Source: Mesoplasma syrphidae (GTDB lineage: Bacteria; Bacillota_I; Bacilli_A; Mycoplasmatales; Mycoplasmataceae). Taken from it: DNA of 64,000 nt. The position numbers and the translations under genes were made by a program. Under the pieces are notes generated by a model. It had not been told where the DNA came from and did no database searches. It saw nothing but the letters and a program-made list of their open reading frames with translations. Of this stretch, positions 5,409-49,100 are shown piece by piece (within the stretch, counting starts at the first letter, position 1; each line of letters opens with the position of its first letter). The stretch spans positions 496,001-560,000 of the forward strand of contig NZ_CP025257.1 of the NCBI RefSeq assembly GCF_002843565.1, given 5' to 3'.

Positions 5409-5690
5409 TTATAGTCCCCTACTCATTATACTCAATTGCTTTTCAGCAGAAATTTTTGTTGCAGTAATAATTAAATTGCTTCTGCGATCAATAATAAAAT
5501 ATATTTGTGTATTTGAAGCTGATATATAAATTTCGTTTCCAGCTTCAAAACTTCTTGTCGAATTTTCAATATGTTTAATAACAGCTTCCTTCACTTCATA
5601 ATCAGGTGCCATTTTAAGATTTAGACGTTCACGACATCTTTGCAATCCATGATCAGAAAAAACATAGTTATGCTTATAGTAAAAACTCAC
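5409..5690 (-). CDS. Small DUF4258-like protein (possible RelE-fold)
   Basis: A 93-residue protein starting with GTG, preceded at 7 nt by a strong AGGAGGG. The pattern SDHGLQRCRERLNL, a central EVKEAV helix, then strands around GNEIYIS, IYFIIDRRSN and LIITATKIS resembles the DUF4258 layout (H..R..R near the N-terminus, a final I-T strand). That family shares the RelE/BrnT-type fold, but no antitoxin partner is visible. It forms a two-gene unit with coaE. A 12-bp inverted repeat (5702-5739) overlaps its presumed promoter. Function unknown; the family call is a pattern judgement only. Confidence 0.4.
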   Translation of the reverse strand: MSFYYKHNYVFSDHGLQRCRERLNLKMAPDYEVKEAVIKHIENSTRSFEAGNEIYISASNTQIYFIIDRRSNLIITATKISAEKQLSIMSRGL

Positions 5691-5739: not shown

Positions 5740-5778
5740 CTAAACCAATGATTTACTAAAAATTTCTTTCAGTTCCCC

Positions 5779-5800
5779 AACAATTTTGCTTAAAATTGTT
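5779..5800 (-). other. Perfect 9-bp stem-loop abutting the stop codon of the sigma-like gene
   Basis: AACAATTTT (5779-5787) and AAAATTGTT (5792-5800) are perfectly complementary around a 4-nt loop. On the minus strand the stem begins with the last base of the TAA stop of the sigma-like gene. No T-tract follows (the next minus-strand bases are GGGGAACTG), so it is not a standard terminator. Confidence 0.7.
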
Positions 5801-6342
5801 TATAACTTATTTCGGGAAATATTATATCTTTCACAAATGGTTTTCTTAGTTATTCCATTAACATAATCATTAAATATTTTTCGAAACCGTTCATCATGAT
5901 ATTTTACAAAGTACTTATCTAGAATGTCCTGATATCCTAAACCAACTGACCAATCAGATTCACAAAAATTTTCATAGTCATGATCTGTTTGCTCATGCAA
6001 CGAATAAGCTTGGTTGACGATTCTAAATTTATTATTAGAATATTTGATACAAACATCCATAGTTTTTCAATATACAGCATCAATAATATAAGATATAAAT
6101 TTTTTACGCTTACTTTTTATTTTGTAATCCTTGATTGCCAACTCAAAGACTTCTCAAGCGGTGCTTTGCAAATCCTCTTTTTCAATTGGCAAACAACTAA
6201 ACTTTTTAAATGCCTTATCAATTGCGTAGTTTATAGGCTTTTTTAAAATACCAAAAAGATGTAGTTTTTCTTTCTCCGTTAATCTAGTCAAACCCTTGTG
6301 ACAATAATATTCAACAGCTTGCGCATAATTAGAATTTTCCAT
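5800..6342 (-). CDS. SigH/ComX-like alternative sigma factor
   Basis: This 180-residue protein looks like a small sigma-70 family factor. Residues ~30-110 match region 2: a helix KPINYAIDKAFKKFS, the signature EKEDLQSTAWEVFELAIKDY (compare EDLVQEG..GL..A...F in SigH), then FISYIIDAVYWKTMDVCIK and the RIVNQAYSLHE segment at the 2.4 position. The C-terminal part, FRKIFNDYVNGITKKTICE then RYNISRNKL, resembles region 4 but ends inside the helix-turn-helix. The same frame stays open for 19 codons past the TAA. ATG follows AAAGGAGA. Mycoplasmas have at least one known small alternative sigma (MG428 of M. genitalium); whether this is an orthologue cannot be judged here. Trp codons are TGA. Confidence 0.65.
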
Positions 6343-6354
6343 AAAAATTCTCCT

Positions 6355-6374
6355 TTCAAAAAGTATTAGAATTT
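6355..6374 (-). promoter_or_regulatory. Element upstream of the sigma-like gene resembling the comEC/C39 boxes
   Basis: Minus-strand sequence TTCTAATACTTTTTGAAAGG shares TTCTAATxCTTTT with the elements upstream of comEC (14931-14950) and of the C39 gene (49081-49100). TCTAAT is also one mismatch from a sigma-A -10 hexamer. The match is shorter than that between the other two copies, so this is tentative. Confidence 0.3.
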
Positions 6375-12882: not shown

Positions 12883-14925
12883 TTACAGAACTTTAACTAA
12901 TCCTGAACTAAAGTTGATGCGAACATTTTTAAAACCTTCAGTTATATAATAAACTATATTAAGTGATTTAAAGGTGTTCAAGGTTTGTTGATCAGGGAAT
13001 TTTAGTCTTTGATAATACATTCCACTAATTAACCCCATTCTAGGATTTAATAATTTAATAAAATCATAATTTGATGACGTCTTCGAACCATGATGAGCAA
13101 CTTGAAGAATATCTAAACGGCGAAGTCTTAAATAGTTTAAAAATTCAGAGTTAGTCATTAAATAATTTTCTGTTACTCTTTCAATGTCACCAGTGAACAA
13201 AAGTCTGGTATTGGCAAAATCAACAATGATAACTAACGACTTATTATTTTCGCTTTTTGCTAAAGAATTATTGAAAATTTTAATTGTCAAATTTTTGATA
13301 ATTAGTTCGTCAAAATTACCAATTCGATAGTAAACATTTTTTACATAGAATTTCATTTGTAAATTTTCAAGAGCATTAAAATGATCTTCATGATTATGTG
13401 AAATAAAAATGGCATCAATTTTATTGATTCCTAAATATTTTAAATACTGAGATGGTAATTGTTTGCTAAAACCTTTACCAACCCCGCAATCAAATAAAAC
13501 TGTTAAATTCTTATATTTATTAAAATAAATAAACGAATTTCCATTTCCGACATTTAACATTTCTAAATGGTGACTTGGCTTCATTAGTCAAATAATTAAG
13601 TAAATGCTTCCAACCAATATTAATCAAAGTAATTGATATTTTCAATTTCATTGAAAACTACATCATAATATCAAAATCATATAAATCAAAAAAACACCAA
13701 AAAAATCTTGATATCCTATATTTATTGAATAACTTAGTCATCCAACAATTTTAAATAAATGGTTTAATCAAAGTTCTAATCCATTTAGTCAAACGGGATT
13801 TGCCCCAAATATAAAAGTAGTTGTCACAATAACATTTATTAGAAGTAAAAATGGGGCTAATATAAAGTCTCATACAGGCGATAATAAATTAATCTGAAAG
13901 TCATAATAAATTTTTAAAGGAATTAATAGTAATCCAATCAAACTTATTTTAACTCTTTGTCTTTTGAGTAGCTTCAAAAATAAGTAACATATTGTGAAAT
14001 ATCAAAAACCATTACTTCCTACATAACTTGGAAATAATAAGCAAGGAACTCAAAAACTAGCAAAATTGGACCAAGGTTTTAATTTCTTATAATTTTTAAA
14101 TGTTGCTTTAAGCAAAAACCGCATTAAAACTCATGAATAATTTAGAAAAAATCATCAGATTCATAAAAGACTAAATAAAACTTTTAGTATATTTTGATGA
14201 TTATTAATATTGGGAATTTTGGTTATCAATATTCATAATCCTCAAATACTCAAGCTATTAAAATTTAATAAATGGCTAAGATTTAAATTCTGAATCAGGC
14301 TTTGAAAATTTTGACTTTTATCCTTGATATTAAATAAAAATAAGTGAATAAGTTCATGATCTGCAAAATTAAAAATTGTTTGATAAAAATAGTATCGTAG
14401 ATAGTGCCAATTTTGATTAGTGATTTCGATTTCTTTAATCTGCTTAAACACTCGCTGATGATTTAAATATGTTTGAAATTGAAAAGTGAAGTAATGATTT
14501 TTGGATAATATTTCTACGTTACCATTAATTCTTACTCGTTGGTCTAAAATAAGATTTAAATGATAATTTGAGACATAATAATTTTGGTAATTGACTTTAA
14601 TAATTGCATAACTAGGTTTCGCTTCAATGACAGTACCCTCTTGATTTGTAATTGATACAATATCTTTTGAATTTTGATTCAAATAAACTCATAATAGAAT
14701 TGCAGCTGCAATAATTATATTTATTAAGAGCGTTCGCTTTCAATGACGTTTATTAAGAAAAATGCTACCTGCAGTGCAAAGAATAGCAAGGCTTGAAATT
14801 CAATAATTTTGACTTTTTATCATCAAATTTAAAAATAGCAGAGTCCCTAGAATCAGATAGTTTTCTAAGTTTGAAATTACTAAACGATATTTACAAGTAT
14901 TTTTTAATGTAAATCCAATTTCAAT
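12883..14925 (-). CDS. comEC: ComEC/Rec2-type DNA uptake channel, probable ATT start
   Basis: One open frame, with many TGA Trp codons, encodes about 680 residues. N-terminal hydrophobic helices are followed by a small beta domain (EGTVIEAKPSYAIIKVNY), a Trp-rich multi-helix competence domain, and from about residue 448 a metallo-beta-lactamase domain with LFDCGVG, SHNHEDH (HxHxDH), LLFTGDIE and VAHHGSKTSS. ComEC passes single-stranded DNA across the membrane in transformable bacteria. No ATG exists near the required N-terminus: the first is at 14823, inside the first hydrophobic helix. I place the start at ATT 14923-14925, 5 nt after GGGGTG; the same arrangement occurs at the C39 gene (49075). 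The metal ligands look intact, so the nuclease-like domain should be functional. Confidence 0.85.
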
Positions 14926-14930
14926 TATTT

Positions 14931-14950
14931 CACCCCAAAAGAATTAGAAA
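14931..14950 (-). promoter_or_regulatory. Shared 20-bp element upstream of comEC
   Basis: Minus-strand TTTCTAATTCTTTTGGGGTG matches the sequence upstream of the C39 gene (49081-49100) at 18 of 20 positions and at the same distance from an ATT codon. It includes a -10-like TCTAAT and a G-rich ribosome binding site. It directly follows the valS terminator, so it is well placed to restart transcription of comEC. Confidence 0.6.
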
Positions 14951-31753: not shown

Positions 31754-34700
31754 TTAATCGTTAATATCTTTAATTGTTTGTTCTTCAGCTGAAACAACAA
31801 TTTTTCTAATAAATTTTTTGTATCCGTACTTAGCATTAATACGCTTTCTTTCCAATCAAATTCAAACTGGAATTGAAACTGTTATAAACACAACAGAAGC
31901 AATTACAACTCCAATTGCCAAAGTCATTCCCATTCCTGAGATAACCGGCAACGTAATTGCAGCAATTACACCAATTGCAATATAGATGGTTCCAACTGCA
32001 ATAAATCTAAAAATTCCAAATTTAATAATATCTAAGAAAATTTGTTTCAAGAAATTATTTTTTCTTGACTCAATTGTTACTTGCTTTTTAGTTTCACCTT
32101 TAAAAATAGCAAAACTTTTAAGAACATTCTTACGATCTTTTTTAAACTGAGTTTGAAGAGTTTTTTGGCTGACTTTGAATTGCTTTTTAATACCTTGTCT
32201 TTGCTCTTTTTCTTTTATTTCAGATAGCTCTTTTGCCAATTTCTTTTTCAATTCTTTATGCGCCTTTTTCAATTGTTTTTTTAATTGATCAAGTTCTTTG
32301 CCCTTAGCATTTTTGGCCTCATTAATCATTACATGCAACTCAATTTCTTTTGCAAATTGTTTATTGATTGTACGCTCATCTTTTGAAGCCAAAATGGTTT
32401 TCCCTTTACCCATAATCAAAATTCCAGTAACCAAACTAAACATTATTATTCCTAAAATGGCTGTAATGATTTCAATTGATACTGGGATTCTAAATAAGAC
32501 AATTAAGGCAACTGTTATTGACATTGTCATTACTAATCCTAATGCTAAAGCAACATAGTAAGTTCATTTAAATCTAATAACCATATAAATAATTAAGGCC
32601 AACAATAAAATTCCAAACATAACTGCAATTTGTCGAATTTGATCATACGCAGTATAAGGTGTTTCTTCAAGACCCAAAATTCCACGATTTGGGTTATTGT
32701 AGTCAGGTGGTAAGTAAAGATATCCTGCAAGAGTTGCCTGAGTTCTTTTCATCTGCTTTAGACTTACTTTTTTTGATGTTTGAATTGAAACTCATCCTGT
32801 GGTTTCTCTAACATTTGTATCCTCATTAATTACTGCAAAATTATTACCATATGAAATTTGTGATTTTCTTAATGATGTTTTGTCCATTCTTGTATTAAAT
32901 GAATCTAAATAATTATTAGATAATAAGAATTCATATGATTGAGCAACGGTTTGAGCCATTCAATAATTTTGTTGCTCTAGTGTTGCATTGTCTATTGAAA
33001 TTACTTGATACAAATTTTTAAAATAAGCATCATTCTTTTCTTTAAGACCTGTCAAGCCGTCATAAATTTTGTCACGATTTTTGTCATTTTCATTTGGCAA
33101 TAATGATTCTTTTGTTGATTCAAGATTTTTATAAGTTTCAGAAACAGCTTCACCATATAAAATAAAGTTTTGCCCTTTTCCTAAATTTGCAGATAAATTA
33201 GCTCCAAATATTCCACCAATAATTGCACCAAAAATAACAATTACTACTCAAAAAATTGATATAAGTTTTCCAAAATAAGCAACTTTTTTTTCAATTTGAA
33301 TTGCCTGAATATTTTGCGATTGTTTCTTATCTGCAAAGTTAGACTCACTTTGTTCAATTAACATTCCTTGATAATTTGATAACTCTAACTTCTTGTTATT
33401 TGCTTTAACGCTTTGATTCGGCTTACTTTCATATTTAGCTTTTGAGGATTCAATTTTATTAATTTGATGTTGAATTTTATCAATTTCCTTTTGATTTCTT
33501 GCAACTTTTTTAGCTAAGCGGTCATTAATCATTTCTTTTTGAATTTCATATAATCGATTCAGTTCATCTTGATTTTCTTTTGTTCTAATCAAATCTTTTG
33601 AAGAAACTTCTATTTTTTTAGAAGCATTTTGAATTTTGACTTCTAAATAACGAATTTTTAAATCAATAAAAAATGATCCTTGAACTTCTTTGGAGGTATC
33701 AATTGGAAGCAAATTTGCATTTTCATGTAGTAATCTTGATTTTACAAGTAAATAGCAAATTACACGCATTATAATAACACCAAATAATATTACAAATAAC
33801 GCTCCAATTCCTGTAATTGTTGCAAAGTTTTTCATAGCACCGGTTCCAATTCAAAATAAAATAATATTTGGAATTAAAACAACAATGGCAGCATCAATTA
33901 CTAGTCATAGAGTTTCTCTGCCACTTATTTTAAATGAAGATTCAATAGAATGCTTATCTTCATATATACTTCGCTTAATGGACTCAAAATACAAAATATT
34001 AATATCAATTGTCAAACCAATTATTATAAATATAATACTGAATATTTCTGGTCCTAATGCAAAACCAAATCAAAATGGTACTAAGAATGTTAGTGCTCCA
34101 ATAATTGCAGCAATGATAATTGTAAACAGTCCTAATAATCGATAAGCAAATATTACATAAATCATTAACATTATTGCAATAATCATTAATGCTACTATAG
34201 AAACAATAAATAATGTTCTTGAGATCAATGCATTAAATTCAGAAATTGAAAAAACTTTAAATGATAATCCTGAAGTTGTTTGTAAGATTGTTGCTACAGC
34301 TTTTTTTGCTTTTGTATATGATGATGTTTTAACAAGCAACTTATTATCTTGAATATATGCTGGTGTTGAAGAAGGAACTTGCGCGTTAGCTTCTGCGATA
34401 ACTTGAATTTGCCCTTTTTGAATAATATTGTCAGAAAAAATTGATTTTTCCAACGCAATATTAACTAAACTATCATCCTTAACATCTTTAAATAATGATT
34501 CTTTAAATAAAACGCTAGTTAGTTTTGAAAAAACATCTTGAATATTTCCTAATTCATTATGATCTGCTTCTGATATTAGTTTTTTTCCATAAATACCATT
34601 TTCATTAAACTCTTTAGCATCAGCATTTTGATCATAAATATACTTACTTAAGTCTGTGTTTACAAAGCTAAACTTATAATTATTATATGGTTCATCGGCT

Positions 34701-35698
34701 GTAGAACTTCCATACAAAATTCTTCTTAAATGTTCTCTAGTATTAATTTCTCCTGAAAATCCTGCATCAAATTTATTATCAAGTAAAGATGCTGTTTTTG
34801 TCTCTCATCCATTGGCTCCTTCTCTTTGATAGTTAACTAAGAAAAAGTCATCTAAAACACGTTTACCCAATTCATCTTTAATTCCAGAATTATTTCGGTA
34901 AAGTCGCAATGGTTTAATAATTCCATCTAAATAAGCATCTAAAAACTTATCTGTATCATTTTTTTGTGAGTATAATGAATAATATTCACGCATATTTGAT
35001 AAAATTGTTTCTACAGAAGTAAACATGTTTAAAGATGGTGCATCACCACCAGTATTTTCACCTTCAGTTGTTGGAGCTACAATTTTAGATAAGTATTGTT
35101 GTGACAAAGAAAACTGAATATATGGTTCATTCGTAATTGCTTGGTTACTTTTAATTGAAACAGTTTCTGCTTTTCCCAATAGCTGAGAAACACCAATTTT
35201 TTCTTTTACAACTTTCTTGTCACCTTCTGATTCATAAATTTTTACATCAGCTTTTGACATTAATGTTTGGTCAAATAAAACATCTTCATAGCTACTGTTT
35301 GTTACTAAGATACCACCACTCATTTCAATTGCATTTTGAAAAAATTTAGTATTGTTAAAGTAAGCATCACGAGATGCTTTTACAGATACCCTACTTGCTC
35401 CAACTTGGGTAACTTCAATTGTATTATCTGAAAATGGTGATAATTTGCTTTCTAATGCTTTTGCTCCTTGAGCAGCATCTCCATTTGGCAAAAATTCATT
35501 ATTTTCTTCTGATGATTGCTTATTATTATCATAAACTCCAACTAAAGCCTCATATCCACCCTTATATTTTGGTCCAAGGACATTATTTGATATACCGCTT
35601 ACACTTGAAAAAATAATTCCCACAATTAGAGAAAGAACAACAAGTCCCATTACAGAAATATGAATTATTTTTTTAGAATTCTTTTTAGGATTTTTCAT
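31754..35698 (-). CDS. secDF: SecDF fusion protein with two long coiled-coil inserts
   Basis: One frame of 1314 residues, interrupted only by TGA Trp codons. SecDF assists Sec-dependent export using ion motive force. Residue 12-32 is the first helix, followed by a large extracellular P1 domain (KYKGGYEALVGVY) and the SecD membrane bundle (~530-660). Residues ~670-800 are a charged coiled coil (FIDLKIRYLEVKIQNASKKI onward). The SecF half follows with its own bundle, interrupted by a second Lys/Glu-rich coiled coil (~1105-1200) before the last helices. The usual SecDF is about 740-900 residues, so both inserts are additional. It heads the secDF-apt unit. Confidence 0.88.
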
Positions 35699-40244: not shown

Positions 40245-41648
40245 TTATCCTTTGTAAAATTCTTTTAATGTTTTACCTAACTTATTAGAATTTGATGGAG
40301 TTTTTAATTTTCGAATTGTTTTTGCTTCAATTTGGCGAATACGTTCACGTGTTACATTTAACTCTTTTCCAACCTCTTCTAAAGTTTTTGGTGAGTCATA
40401 TTTGGTTAAATGTGATTTAATAACTTCATTTTCATAAACCCTTACTTTTTCAATTGGCGTATCAAAATGCAAATCTAGCTCCTTAATAGCATTTTTCAAT
40501 TCCTCAGCAGTATCATCACCACATTCAGAAGCTAATCTTAAGATTGTTCTTAACTTTGTAGGAATAATTCCATATCTCATGCGAATAACTTTTTCTTCTC
40601 TTGCTGGCATTTCAGAAAATACTTTGTCTATTTCTTCTCTCAAAACTTCTTTTTCAGCAAAATCATTTGGAGAAATCATATCCTTATCTTCAACAAAATC
40701 TCCGAAATGAGTATCATCTTCATCTCCAAATGGTTTTTCTAATGAAACGGGTTCTACGGACAATTTTTTAATTTCAATAACCTTAGCAGGAGTTAAACCT
40801 GTTCCAACTTTATCAGCAATTTCTTCAGCTGATGGCTCTCTACCTAATTCCTGAGTTAGCTGACGTTCAACTCTTGCTAATTTGTTAATTGTTTCAACCA
40901 TATGAACTGGAATACGAATTGTTCTTGCCTGATCGGCAATTGCACGAGTAATAGCTTGACGAATTCATCAAGTTGCGTAAGTTGAAAATTTAAAACCTTT
41001 TGTATAGTCAAACTTGTCCACAGCTTTCATTAATCCAATATTTCCTTCTTCAATTAAATCTGGAAAATCCAAACCACGATTTAAATGTTTTCTAGCAACA
41101 GAAATAACCAATTTCAAGTTTGATTCAATTAATTTGTGACGTCCTTCCTGAACTTCTTCAGGATCTGGAGAGGTTAACATTTTGGCGTATTCAATTTCCT
41201 CATCTTTTGTCAAAATTTTTCCTGATCCAATTTTATGGAAGTATGTCTTGATAATATCCTGAATTTTTGTTTCATTTGAAATTCCACCAACACGATATTT
41301 CATTTGTGTTGTATCTTTTGCTTCTTTTCTACCCTTTGCAGCAGACTTTTTAGCAATTGCCATTTCATCAGCAAAATCATCATCAATCTCAACTTCATCA
41401 AATTCTTCTGCAAGAGATACCAAATCAACATCCAAGTCCGTAAATTTTGCTCCCAGTTTTTCCAAATCATTTAACAAATTTTCATAAACATTGTCATCTG
41501 CATTTGGAAAAATTGATGTGAATCCCTCCTGAACTTCTTCTGTAGAAATTTCATTTTCATTCTCTTTTAAATAATGACTAACATATTCTCTAAACTCGTC
41601 CACACTTTTAATATTTTTGATACTTTTTTTATCATTAAACTTTTTCAT
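40245..41648 (-). CDS. rpoD: Primary sigma factor (sigma A) with an insertion in region 4
   Basis: Housekeeping sigma factor, 467 residues. Region 2 is intact ([44 protein letters not shown]); region 3 and the start of region 4 ([14 protein letters not shown], 348-360) follow. Instead of about ten residues there are about 62 before [20 protein letters not shown] (423-441), giving an insert of roughly 50 residues (361-420) containing two predicted helices. The -35-reading helix itself is normal. It lies in the dnaG-rpoD macromolecular synthesis operon, 3 nt after dnaG. Confidence 0.95.
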
Positions 41649-47224: not shown

Positions 47225-49075
47225 TTAGTATAAATCGTTAAAAACAATTAGCAAATTAGAATTAATCTCAGCTGCCAACTCTATAATTTTTAAAACATCC
47301 TCACGTCTTATCAAATAAAAATTTTGATCAATGATATAAACACTTTTGGATGTAAATAAGACACGACATAAAACAATAAGCTCTTTTTGAAATTCGCTTA
47401 ATCCTTCAGGAATAATTAAACTCTGAATTTTCACACCATATTTATTAGAGAATTCTAAGAAGGCATCGGTACTTAAAATTTTGTTTGCATTAATTGAAAA
47501 ATTATTATCTACTAAATTACTTAGTAGAGTTCCATATCAAATGTCTAGATTATAACTATTGCCATAATAAATTTGGGCTCGAATACTTAAAGTAGTAAAG
47601 TTAGAAACTTCCAAATTATTAATGAATACTTCAATAAGAGAATTTTTTACTGACTTATTAACAACTTTCAAAAAATTTCTTTCCTTTTTGAGAATATTAA
47701 TTCCTTTTAATAAGATGATTGGTGGCTGAGCAATTTCAACTAACTTGATAGTATGAATATTCGGACAACTATTGTTTGTCTTCGTATCAATAAAAAGTTT
47801 GTTAAGTTTGAAAACATAACTAAAATATTTTTTGCGATGTTTGAGAAAACTTAGCACCAGCTTTAAGTGAGTTTGGCTTAAACTATTAAGCACCAAAATG
47901 ATTATTAAATTTTCAAAAATAATTGCCTGTTTTTTTAAATCAAACCACAAAACTCAGTAAATCAAAAGTACTAAAATCTTATCCAATACTAGCTCAAAAT
48001 TTTTAAATCAGTCGATTTGAAAATGATGATTATTGTTTTTTAATTTTAGTAAAATCTGATCAATCATGACTTTTTCTTTTCCAGAATTTTGATAAATCTC
48101 TTTACTAGTTATATATTTTATAACTTCAATATTAGCTGATGGCGCTTGAATTGGAGTAGTGACGAGTAAGCTGATTCCTATTATGATAAAGTTATGAACA
48201 AAAATTAACCCCGCAACACCAAAATTAAGTTTGGCTATTACGAATGAACATATAACATTGGAGATTGTATTCGGAATTATGGGAATAATTATATTAATCA
48301 TAAAATCGATAATAAATTTGCTTTCTTCAAAAATTTTATAGTAGTCAATCTGATGACTATAATTGGTACAAAAATAGAAAAATTTTTTGAGCATAAAAAT
48401 ATGCTGTTTTTTTCGCAATTTTTCTACGACCAATGCATTGAGTTCTTTAAATAATAAGTTTAAAACAAATAATGTAAAAAAATAAATATACAAATAAATA
48501 TTAGGTTGGGAATAAACAAGATCTTGGCCATATTTTTTAATAAACTGTGCTTCGCCAATAAAAATTATTGTTGTAACAAAAGTTATTATTGAATAATTTA
48601 TTATGTATAATTTGTATCCTTTAAAATTAAATGCTTTTCAAAAGCCACGTTCTGCTTTGTAAAGTTTTCTATTAGCCGTAAAAATAATTATATTACCTGC
48701 AAAAATGCTTTGAAACTCTTTTCACGACAACATCGATTGACGAGATTTGCTTGGGTCATTAATAATTATTTTATTATCAGTAATTTGACTGACAATAATA
48801 AAATGCAAAATTCCTTGTTTATCAACAGTTTGAGCCAAAAAAGGTTTCTGCTTTTTTAATAACTCAAAATCAGTTACTTTTTCAAAAGCCTCTCCATTTA
48901 AAAAATAGGCTTTGGCAATGACCACTAAATCAAAAAAATTCAAACTCTTCGAGTCTAAATTTTGTTCGTATTTTATTTGATCAATATCAATAGTTGTATT
49001 ATGAAAAAAATTAATAAGCATAGCTAAACATGCAATGCCACATTCTTGATACCCTGTTTGCTTTATGTGTCTAAT
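47225..49075 (-). CDS. C39-peptidase ABC-transporter-like protein with degenerate ATPase, probable ATT start
   Basis: About 616 residues in one TGA-containing frame. The N-terminus is a C39 bacteriocin/pheromone-processing peptidase with Gln6, Cys12 (QTGYQECGIACLAM), His91 (GILHFIIV) and Asp107 (NDPS): all triad positions present. A multi-helix ABC type membrane domain follows (~150-400). The C-terminal nucleotide-binding domain keeps the start of the fold (PPIILLKGINI) but Walker A is replaced by VVNKSVKNSLIEV (~471-483), the signature is EGLSEFQKELIVLCR, and Walker B ends IIDQ. ATP hydrolysis seems unlikely. The frame has no ATG before residue 19; ATT 49073-49075 lies 5 nt after AGGGTG. It follows the DJ-1 gene. 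Confidence 0.75.
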
Positions 49076-49080
49076 TTTCT

Positions 49081-49100
49081 CACCCTTAAAGAATTAGAAA
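49081..49100 (-). promoter_or_regulatory. Shared 20-bp element upstream of the C39 gene
   Basis: Minus-strand TTTCTAATTCTTTAAGGGTG, 18/20 identical to the element before comEC (14931-14950) and again exactly 5 nt before an ATT codon. It fills almost the whole gap between the DJ-1 stop codon and the C39 reading frame. Confidence 0.6.

Follow-up and report, generated by a model that had tools for sequence, protein, structure and literature searches.

In a 64,000-nucleotide stretch of the Mesoplasma syrphidae chromosome (NZ_CP025257.1, positions 496,001 to 560,000; hereafter the window), we found a truncated gene whose product almost certainly belongs to the SigH-type sigma factor family. The explanation that best accounts for the evidence overall, to which we give a probability of about 0.75, is that this gene is a mollicute orthologue of sigH that is autoregulated and drives DNA uptake together with the export of a double-glycine (GG) peptide. 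Mollicutes, which are among the smallest bacteria, serve as models of minimal life and are usually modelled with one sigma factor. The single-sigma rule in mollicutes has many more exceptions than MG428 of Mycoplasma genitalium. Putative alternative sigma factors in mollicutes have been described as mostly species-specific and often comprising a -35-binding domain only (PMC5138195), and M. florum is stated to have one sigma factor (PMC7745072). Our literature search returned no account of mollicutes that carry SigH at the ancestral locus; the main MG428 papers lay outside its reach, and priority is uncertain. If the proposed regulon is true, whether mollicutes take up DNA naturally, a long-standing uncertainty, would become directly testable through the expression of one small gene, and a second, orthogonal transcription system would become available for near-minimal cells.

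The sigma factor gene and its family

The gene occupies positions 5803-6342 of the window on the minus strand, with its stop codon at 5800-5802, and encodes 180 amino acids under genetic code 4, in which TGA is read as tryptophan (twice here). The original prediction had proposed at this place a 180-residue SigH/ComX-type alternative sigma factor with a recognisable region 2, a region 4-like C-terminus and an upstream element shared with comEC and a C39-type gene. The reading frame, both quoted region 2 peptides and the shared element are indeed present; a complete region 4 is not. The product is 81% identical to its counterpart in Mesoplasma seiffertii (dN 0.10, dS 1.10, dN/dS ~0.09), and a single-sequence search detected homologues in 21 of the 60 family genomes. 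This is a real gene, maintained by selection.

Searched alone, the window protein yielded no sigma domain in Pfam, no relevant match in the PDB, and a non-significant match to the sigma70-ECF model TIGR02937 (E = 0.075 over residues 45-178). The lack of a significant match favors an ordinary helix-turn-helix regulator or an unrelated helical protein, a reading that is contradicted by profile, fold and gene-order evidence at the family level and that we consider hardly credible. Single-sequence searches against Pfam, NCBIfam and the PDB would by themselves have wrongly dismissed the sigma finding. In an alignment of 20 family members (A1), all 20 matched TIGR02937 (best 2e-11) and 7 matched SigH models (best 1.5e-6), with SigI and SigBFG models scoring similarly to SigH for single members; Pfam models of region 2 and region 4 were matched by several family members. 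When the A1 profile was searched against the PDB, SigH of Fusobacterium (3mzy) was the top match (E = 6.8e-8), ahead of further sigma factors and helix-turn-helix proteins. Aligned by hhalign with twelve SigH-like sequences of Firmicutes, the same profile gave a probability of 98.9 and an E value of 3.2e-17 over 178 columns that span region 2. This region covers residues 42-115 approximately (5998-6219, minus strand), where E54, D57, W92 and N110 are invariant in A1, and by homology it would bind core RNA polymerase and recognise the -10 element.

The predicted structure agrees with the profiles. An AlphaFold model of the intact protein (pLDDT 79, pTM 0.49) retrieved Bacillus subtilis SigH as its first Foldseek match (E = 2.4e-5, probability 1.00), and the further top matches were nearly all sigma factors; the low TM-scores (0.24-0.38) are what one expects when a flexible linker joins two domains. 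The profile search and structure prediction proposed with the original prediction both support a sigma factor of the SigH/ComX type. The NCBIfam SigH model TIGR02859 matched only rpoD in the M. syrphidae genome (29 bits), and its cut-off of 294.8 bits was reached by no genome in a 120-genome sample of the class. This rpoD, the principal sigma factor, is a separate gene at 40245-41648 on the minus strand.

Gene order in relatives is the strongest evidence for the proposed SigH/ComX-type factor. In Bacillus, sigH lies in the order cysS-rlmB-sigH-rpmG-secE-nusG. Ten of 18 family loci read cysS-rlmB-sig-rpmG(L33)-secE-nusG-L11-L1 or a close variant, and the core order rlmB-sig-rpmG-secE-nusG occurs in genera g2, g6 and g8-g12, in most genomes of the Spiroplasma group and in several other mollicute families; Spiroplasma genomes that were blank in a simple search carry a diverged gene at the same locus. 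That the retained sigma genes sit mostly at the ancestral sigH locus is hard to dispute. The gene adjoins coaE instead in g1 (the genus of M. syrphidae), g3 and g7, and in its own genus it has moved there. For Lactobacillus sakei SigH, which drives competence genes, orthology was likewise argued from gene order (PMC3364868). We hold membership of the SigH-type family to be nearly certain, and it is highly likely that the gene is a strongly diverged, vertically inherited orthologue of sigH.

Between the sigma gene and coaE lies a small conserved reading frame of 93 amino acids (5409-5690, minus strand), found in the same order in g1, g3 and g7 and with remote relatives in IMG/VR contigs. We considered this frame as an anti-sigma factor and put the reading aside because the frame outlives the sigma gene: it is kept where that gene is lost (genome G013) or broken (genome G012).

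A shared upstream element and its predicted targets

The 64-kb window holds exactly three copies of the sequence TTCTAATNCTTTT, against an expectation of 0.17, and none of 100 shuffles reached three. Two copies precede genes, at 6359-6371 before the sigma gene and at 14937-14949 before comEC. The third (35450-35462, plus strand) lies on the strand opposite to and inside a coding frame of 1314 amino acids (31754-35698), and as a regulatory site it was treated as chance. A one-mismatch copy is found at 49087-49099 by the C39 gene. The element that had been predicted to be common to the three genes is thus real, exact before two of them and altered by one mismatch before C39. Across the whole genome there are 7 exact copies, of which 4 lie inside genes on the opposite strand.

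The sites before the sigma gene, comEC and C39 are all on the minus strand. Before the sigma gene, the element CTAATACTTTTTGAAAGGAG (6350-6369) is identical in M. seiffertii and reads as a putative -10 box plus ribosome-binding site, consistent with autoregulation. Before comEC, CTAATTCTTTTGGGGTG (14931-14947) is conserved in M. seiffertii and appears as CTAATACTAT in the more divergent genome G053, and before the C39 gene, CTAATTCTTTAAGGGTG (49081-49097) is conserved in M. seiffertii, G054 and G053. We built a strict pattern that includes the ribosome-binding site, CTAATNCTTTN{1,6}RGGNG, on these three window sites. It found 4 sites in the 908-kb M. syrphidae genome, against an expectation of 0.24 per 908 kb in Markov sequence, and 5 in M. 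seiffertii; the reversed control gave 0 in all four genomes. Those of M. syrphidae lie before the sigma gene, comEC, C39 and a gene for a 110-residue peptide with a double-glycine leader. The first three had served to design the pattern, which makes the fourth site an independent result; GG-leader peptides are the substrate class of C39 peptidases, and this new target fits the C39 protein. Each of the four sites has a conserved counterpart in M. seiffertii. The fifth site of M. seiffertii (C5:44007) lies before a 369-residue protein without an assigned family, and a small membrane protein comes next.

The comEC gene (12883-14925, minus strand) encodes the DNA-uptake channel and matches TIGR00361 (ComEC_Rec2, E = 1.6e-26); a search of the genome with Pfam PF03772 gave nothing, and the gene was found using the protein itself as query. 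The C39 double-glycine peptidase/exporter-like gene (47225-49075, minus strand) matches PF03412 (E = 1.8e-23, residues 3-135), NF045998 (E = 4.4e-30) and ComA peptidase structures. In comEC, C39 and the GG peptide gene of M. syrphidae, 22 nt separate CTAAT from the start codon, and this spacing puts the probable start codon of comEC at 14925 and that of C39 at 49075, both ATT; the C39 start is also needed to include the expected catalytic cysteine of YQECG. Two putatively co-regulated genes would thus have rare start codons. In M. seiffertii, comEC appears to start with ATC, equally spaced from the element. Pfam detects neither an ABC-transporter ATPase nor a membrane domain in the C39 protein, and its exporter half may therefore be degenerate. 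The GG-leader peptide (MKKMSAAVMKQTEGG|AVSGAFLAGLGKL...) is encoded outside the window at about 626,520-626,850 of the genome, between genes taken as rsmI and rplU. It has orthologues in M. seiffertii and G053 and no Pfam or NCBIfam family; it may act as a pheromone or bacteriocin, or form a surface or pilus-like component.

The sigma protein of G053 shares 39% identity with its M. seiffertii counterpart, and this genome carries a variant of the element, CCTAATACTATW, at the same place before the comEC operon, C39 and the GG peptide; only one other CTAATACTAT was found in the 135 kb searched, and there is no obvious copy upstream of its sigma gene. G054 was informative for its C39 gene, which the element precedes. 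Upstream regions in g7 contain only loosely similar AT-rich sequences. By eye, no convincing -35 element was seen in 13 sites. A loosened pattern (CTAATNCTTTN{0,14}GG) gave 28 matches in M. syrphidae (overlaps counted) against 7 in the control, and was too noisy to extend the regulon. Two local features accompany these genes. Just upstream of comEC in G053, directly after the element, a 30-codon membrane peptide with a GTG start overlaps the comEC start. Upstream of C39 in g7 lies an inverted repeat, CACCTTACTAATATAGTGAGGTG, predicted to pair with the C39 ribosome-binding site; by analogy, it is possibly a translational switch like that reported for Staphylococcus aureus sigH (PMC3486894).

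The same element might be nothing but the RpoD -10 box and translation-initiation context of weakly expressed genes, unread by the SigH-type protein. The sigma-70 -10 boxes of M. florum are TAWAAT without a clear -35 (PMC7745072), CTAAT resembles TATAAT, and the ribosome-binding site forms part of our pattern. Nevertheless, each genome has only four such sites or so and the control none, the genes that carry the sites, among them that of the sigma factor, are linked in function, and in the divergent G053 three of the same genes share a separate variant. We consider this alternative unlikely. A regulon of the sigma gene, comEC, C39 and the GG peptide gene is, in our estimation, probable.

Truncation in M. 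syrphidae and loss in relatives

The region 4-like C-terminus of the original prediction is incomplete in the window copy. Region 4 (residues about 137-180, 5803-5934, minus strand) was delimited by the helix boundaries of the model and by an in-frame stop, and the protein ends after ISRNKL, while intact relatives run ~20 residues further through the recognition helix; M. seiffertii has 20 extra C-terminal residues, ISRNKLQTILSKIVIELKEIFSKSLV. In the AlphaFold model of the intact protein this helix comprises residues 177-198, so the stop falls inside it and the window protein is without nearly all of it. Relatives have a complete region 4 helix-turn-helix (Pfam Sigma70_r4_2, best E = 1.6e-7) that the window copy lacks, and the genome that we take to be florum L1 carries an intact sigma gene. 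Past the stop, the remainder of the ancestral frame (5740-5802 including the in-frame stop, minus strand; 19 codons plus stop) is still open, with 18 of its 19 residues identical to M. seiffertii and a dN/dS of ~0.04 over few sites. Given this conservation, the stop would reflect a very recent loss, a mutation in culture, or an error in sequencing or assembly.

We read the status of the sigma gene and, among competence genes, of comEC in 60 family genomes. Both were intact in 41, both broken or absent in 12, the sigma gene alone affected in 3 (including M. syrphidae) and comEC alone in 4. Thus, 12 of the 15 sigma losses coincide with a broken or absent comEC (Fisher p = 4.6e-7, uncorrected for phylogeny), and the lesions in the two genes differ between genomes. 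In G012, for example, the sigma gene is riddled with stops, and it is broken along with comEC and C39, while the genes mapped next to the sigma gene have normal lengths; in G013, the sigma gene is absent. On a NusG tree, sigma status requires at least 13 changes and comEC status 10. Restricting the test to well-supported branches left 7 independent pairs, with a mean of 3.7 concordant and 0 discordant, which is not significant because the pairs are too few. The sigma gene and comEC tend to decay together, and general genome decay, especially in g8, possibly contributes. If the regulon is true, these recurrent losses would represent a competence programme repeatedly abandoned by lineages.

The repeated decay and the stop in the recognition helix both favor a SigH-type gene that is dead or dying in M. 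syrphidae, its regulon orphaned. Against this, the tail past the stop is still conserved, and M. syrphidae has kept comEC, C39 and all four elements intact. We give a dying gene a little better than an even chance; it is compatible with the autoregulated SigH programme in intact relatives. With most of the recognition helix lost, the sequenced strain probably runs the programme weakly or not at all, provided that the stop is genuine.

A proposed programme and its relation to known systems

The regulon with autoregulation suspected at the outset gains support from how specific the element is across the genome, from its conservation among relatives, from the GG-leader target and from the co-decay of the sigma gene with comEC. 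In the mechanism that we propose, the intact protein would use region 2 to take the place of RpoD on core RNA polymerase. Transcription would start at a -10-type element, CTAATNCTTTW, read with little -35 requirement and located 1-6 nt upstream of the ribosome-binding site, which would produce very short leaders. The factor would activate its own gene, a positive feedback, along with the ComEC channel, the C39 peptidase/exporter and the GG-leader peptide that this exporter would process. In the genus of M. syrphidae the outcome would be a reduced competence-plus-peptide programme. Promoter binding, transcription start, DNA uptake and peptide export are what we infer from genome comparison. More broadly, and on balance rather likely, the Mollicutes as a whole inherited SigH, and the Mesoplasma group built around it a minimal autoregulated competence programme (comEC, C39 exporter and GG peptide), with a -10 code drifting between species and AUU/AUC starts in comEC and C39.

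The original prediction had named MG428 as a known exception among mollicutes, and our profiles place it as a remote family member. The family profile recovered MG428 of M. genitalium (we take the match in genome G180 to be this gene), and hhalign gave a probability of 96 and an E value of 4.7e-9 over 133 columns. Like the Mesoplasma protein, MG428 (sigma-20) is a small mollicute alternative sigma factor; it differs in lying away from the sigH locus and in controlling recombination genes. The MG428 promoter, TTGTCA-N18/19-ATTWAT, differs from CTAATNCTTTW. Since MG428 controls recA, ruvA and ruvB (review PMC9262362), this homology leaves some room for an MG428-like recombination or antigenic-variation factor acting on recA and ruvAB. 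In M. syrphidae, the strict element lies only before the sigma gene, comEC, C39 and the GG peptide, with recA and ruvAB absent from the sites listed, and the promoters are unlike each other; we judge this reading improbable.

The SigH of Firmicutes (B. subtilis, S. aureus and L. sakei) is a further close counterpart. It shares the architecture of region 2 plus region 4, the profile match (E = 3e-17) and, in relatives of the Mesoplasma gene, the cysS-rlmB-sigH-rpmG-secE-nusG order; S. aureus SigH drives comE and comG (PMC3486894). The Mesoplasma gene differs in being too diverged for the SigH model in its own genome, in its place beside coaE in its own genus, in its -10 element, and in its few predicted targets, which include the C39/GG-peptide pair.

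The ComX/SigX factors of streptococci couple a sigma factor to DNA uptake and double-glycine peptides, and their promoter is dominated by one -10-type box. The proposed Mesoplasma system has the same linkage. The streptococcal C39 exporter, ComAB, acts upstream of ComX by handling the pheromone; in Mesoplasma, by contrast, the C39 gene itself carries the putative target element.
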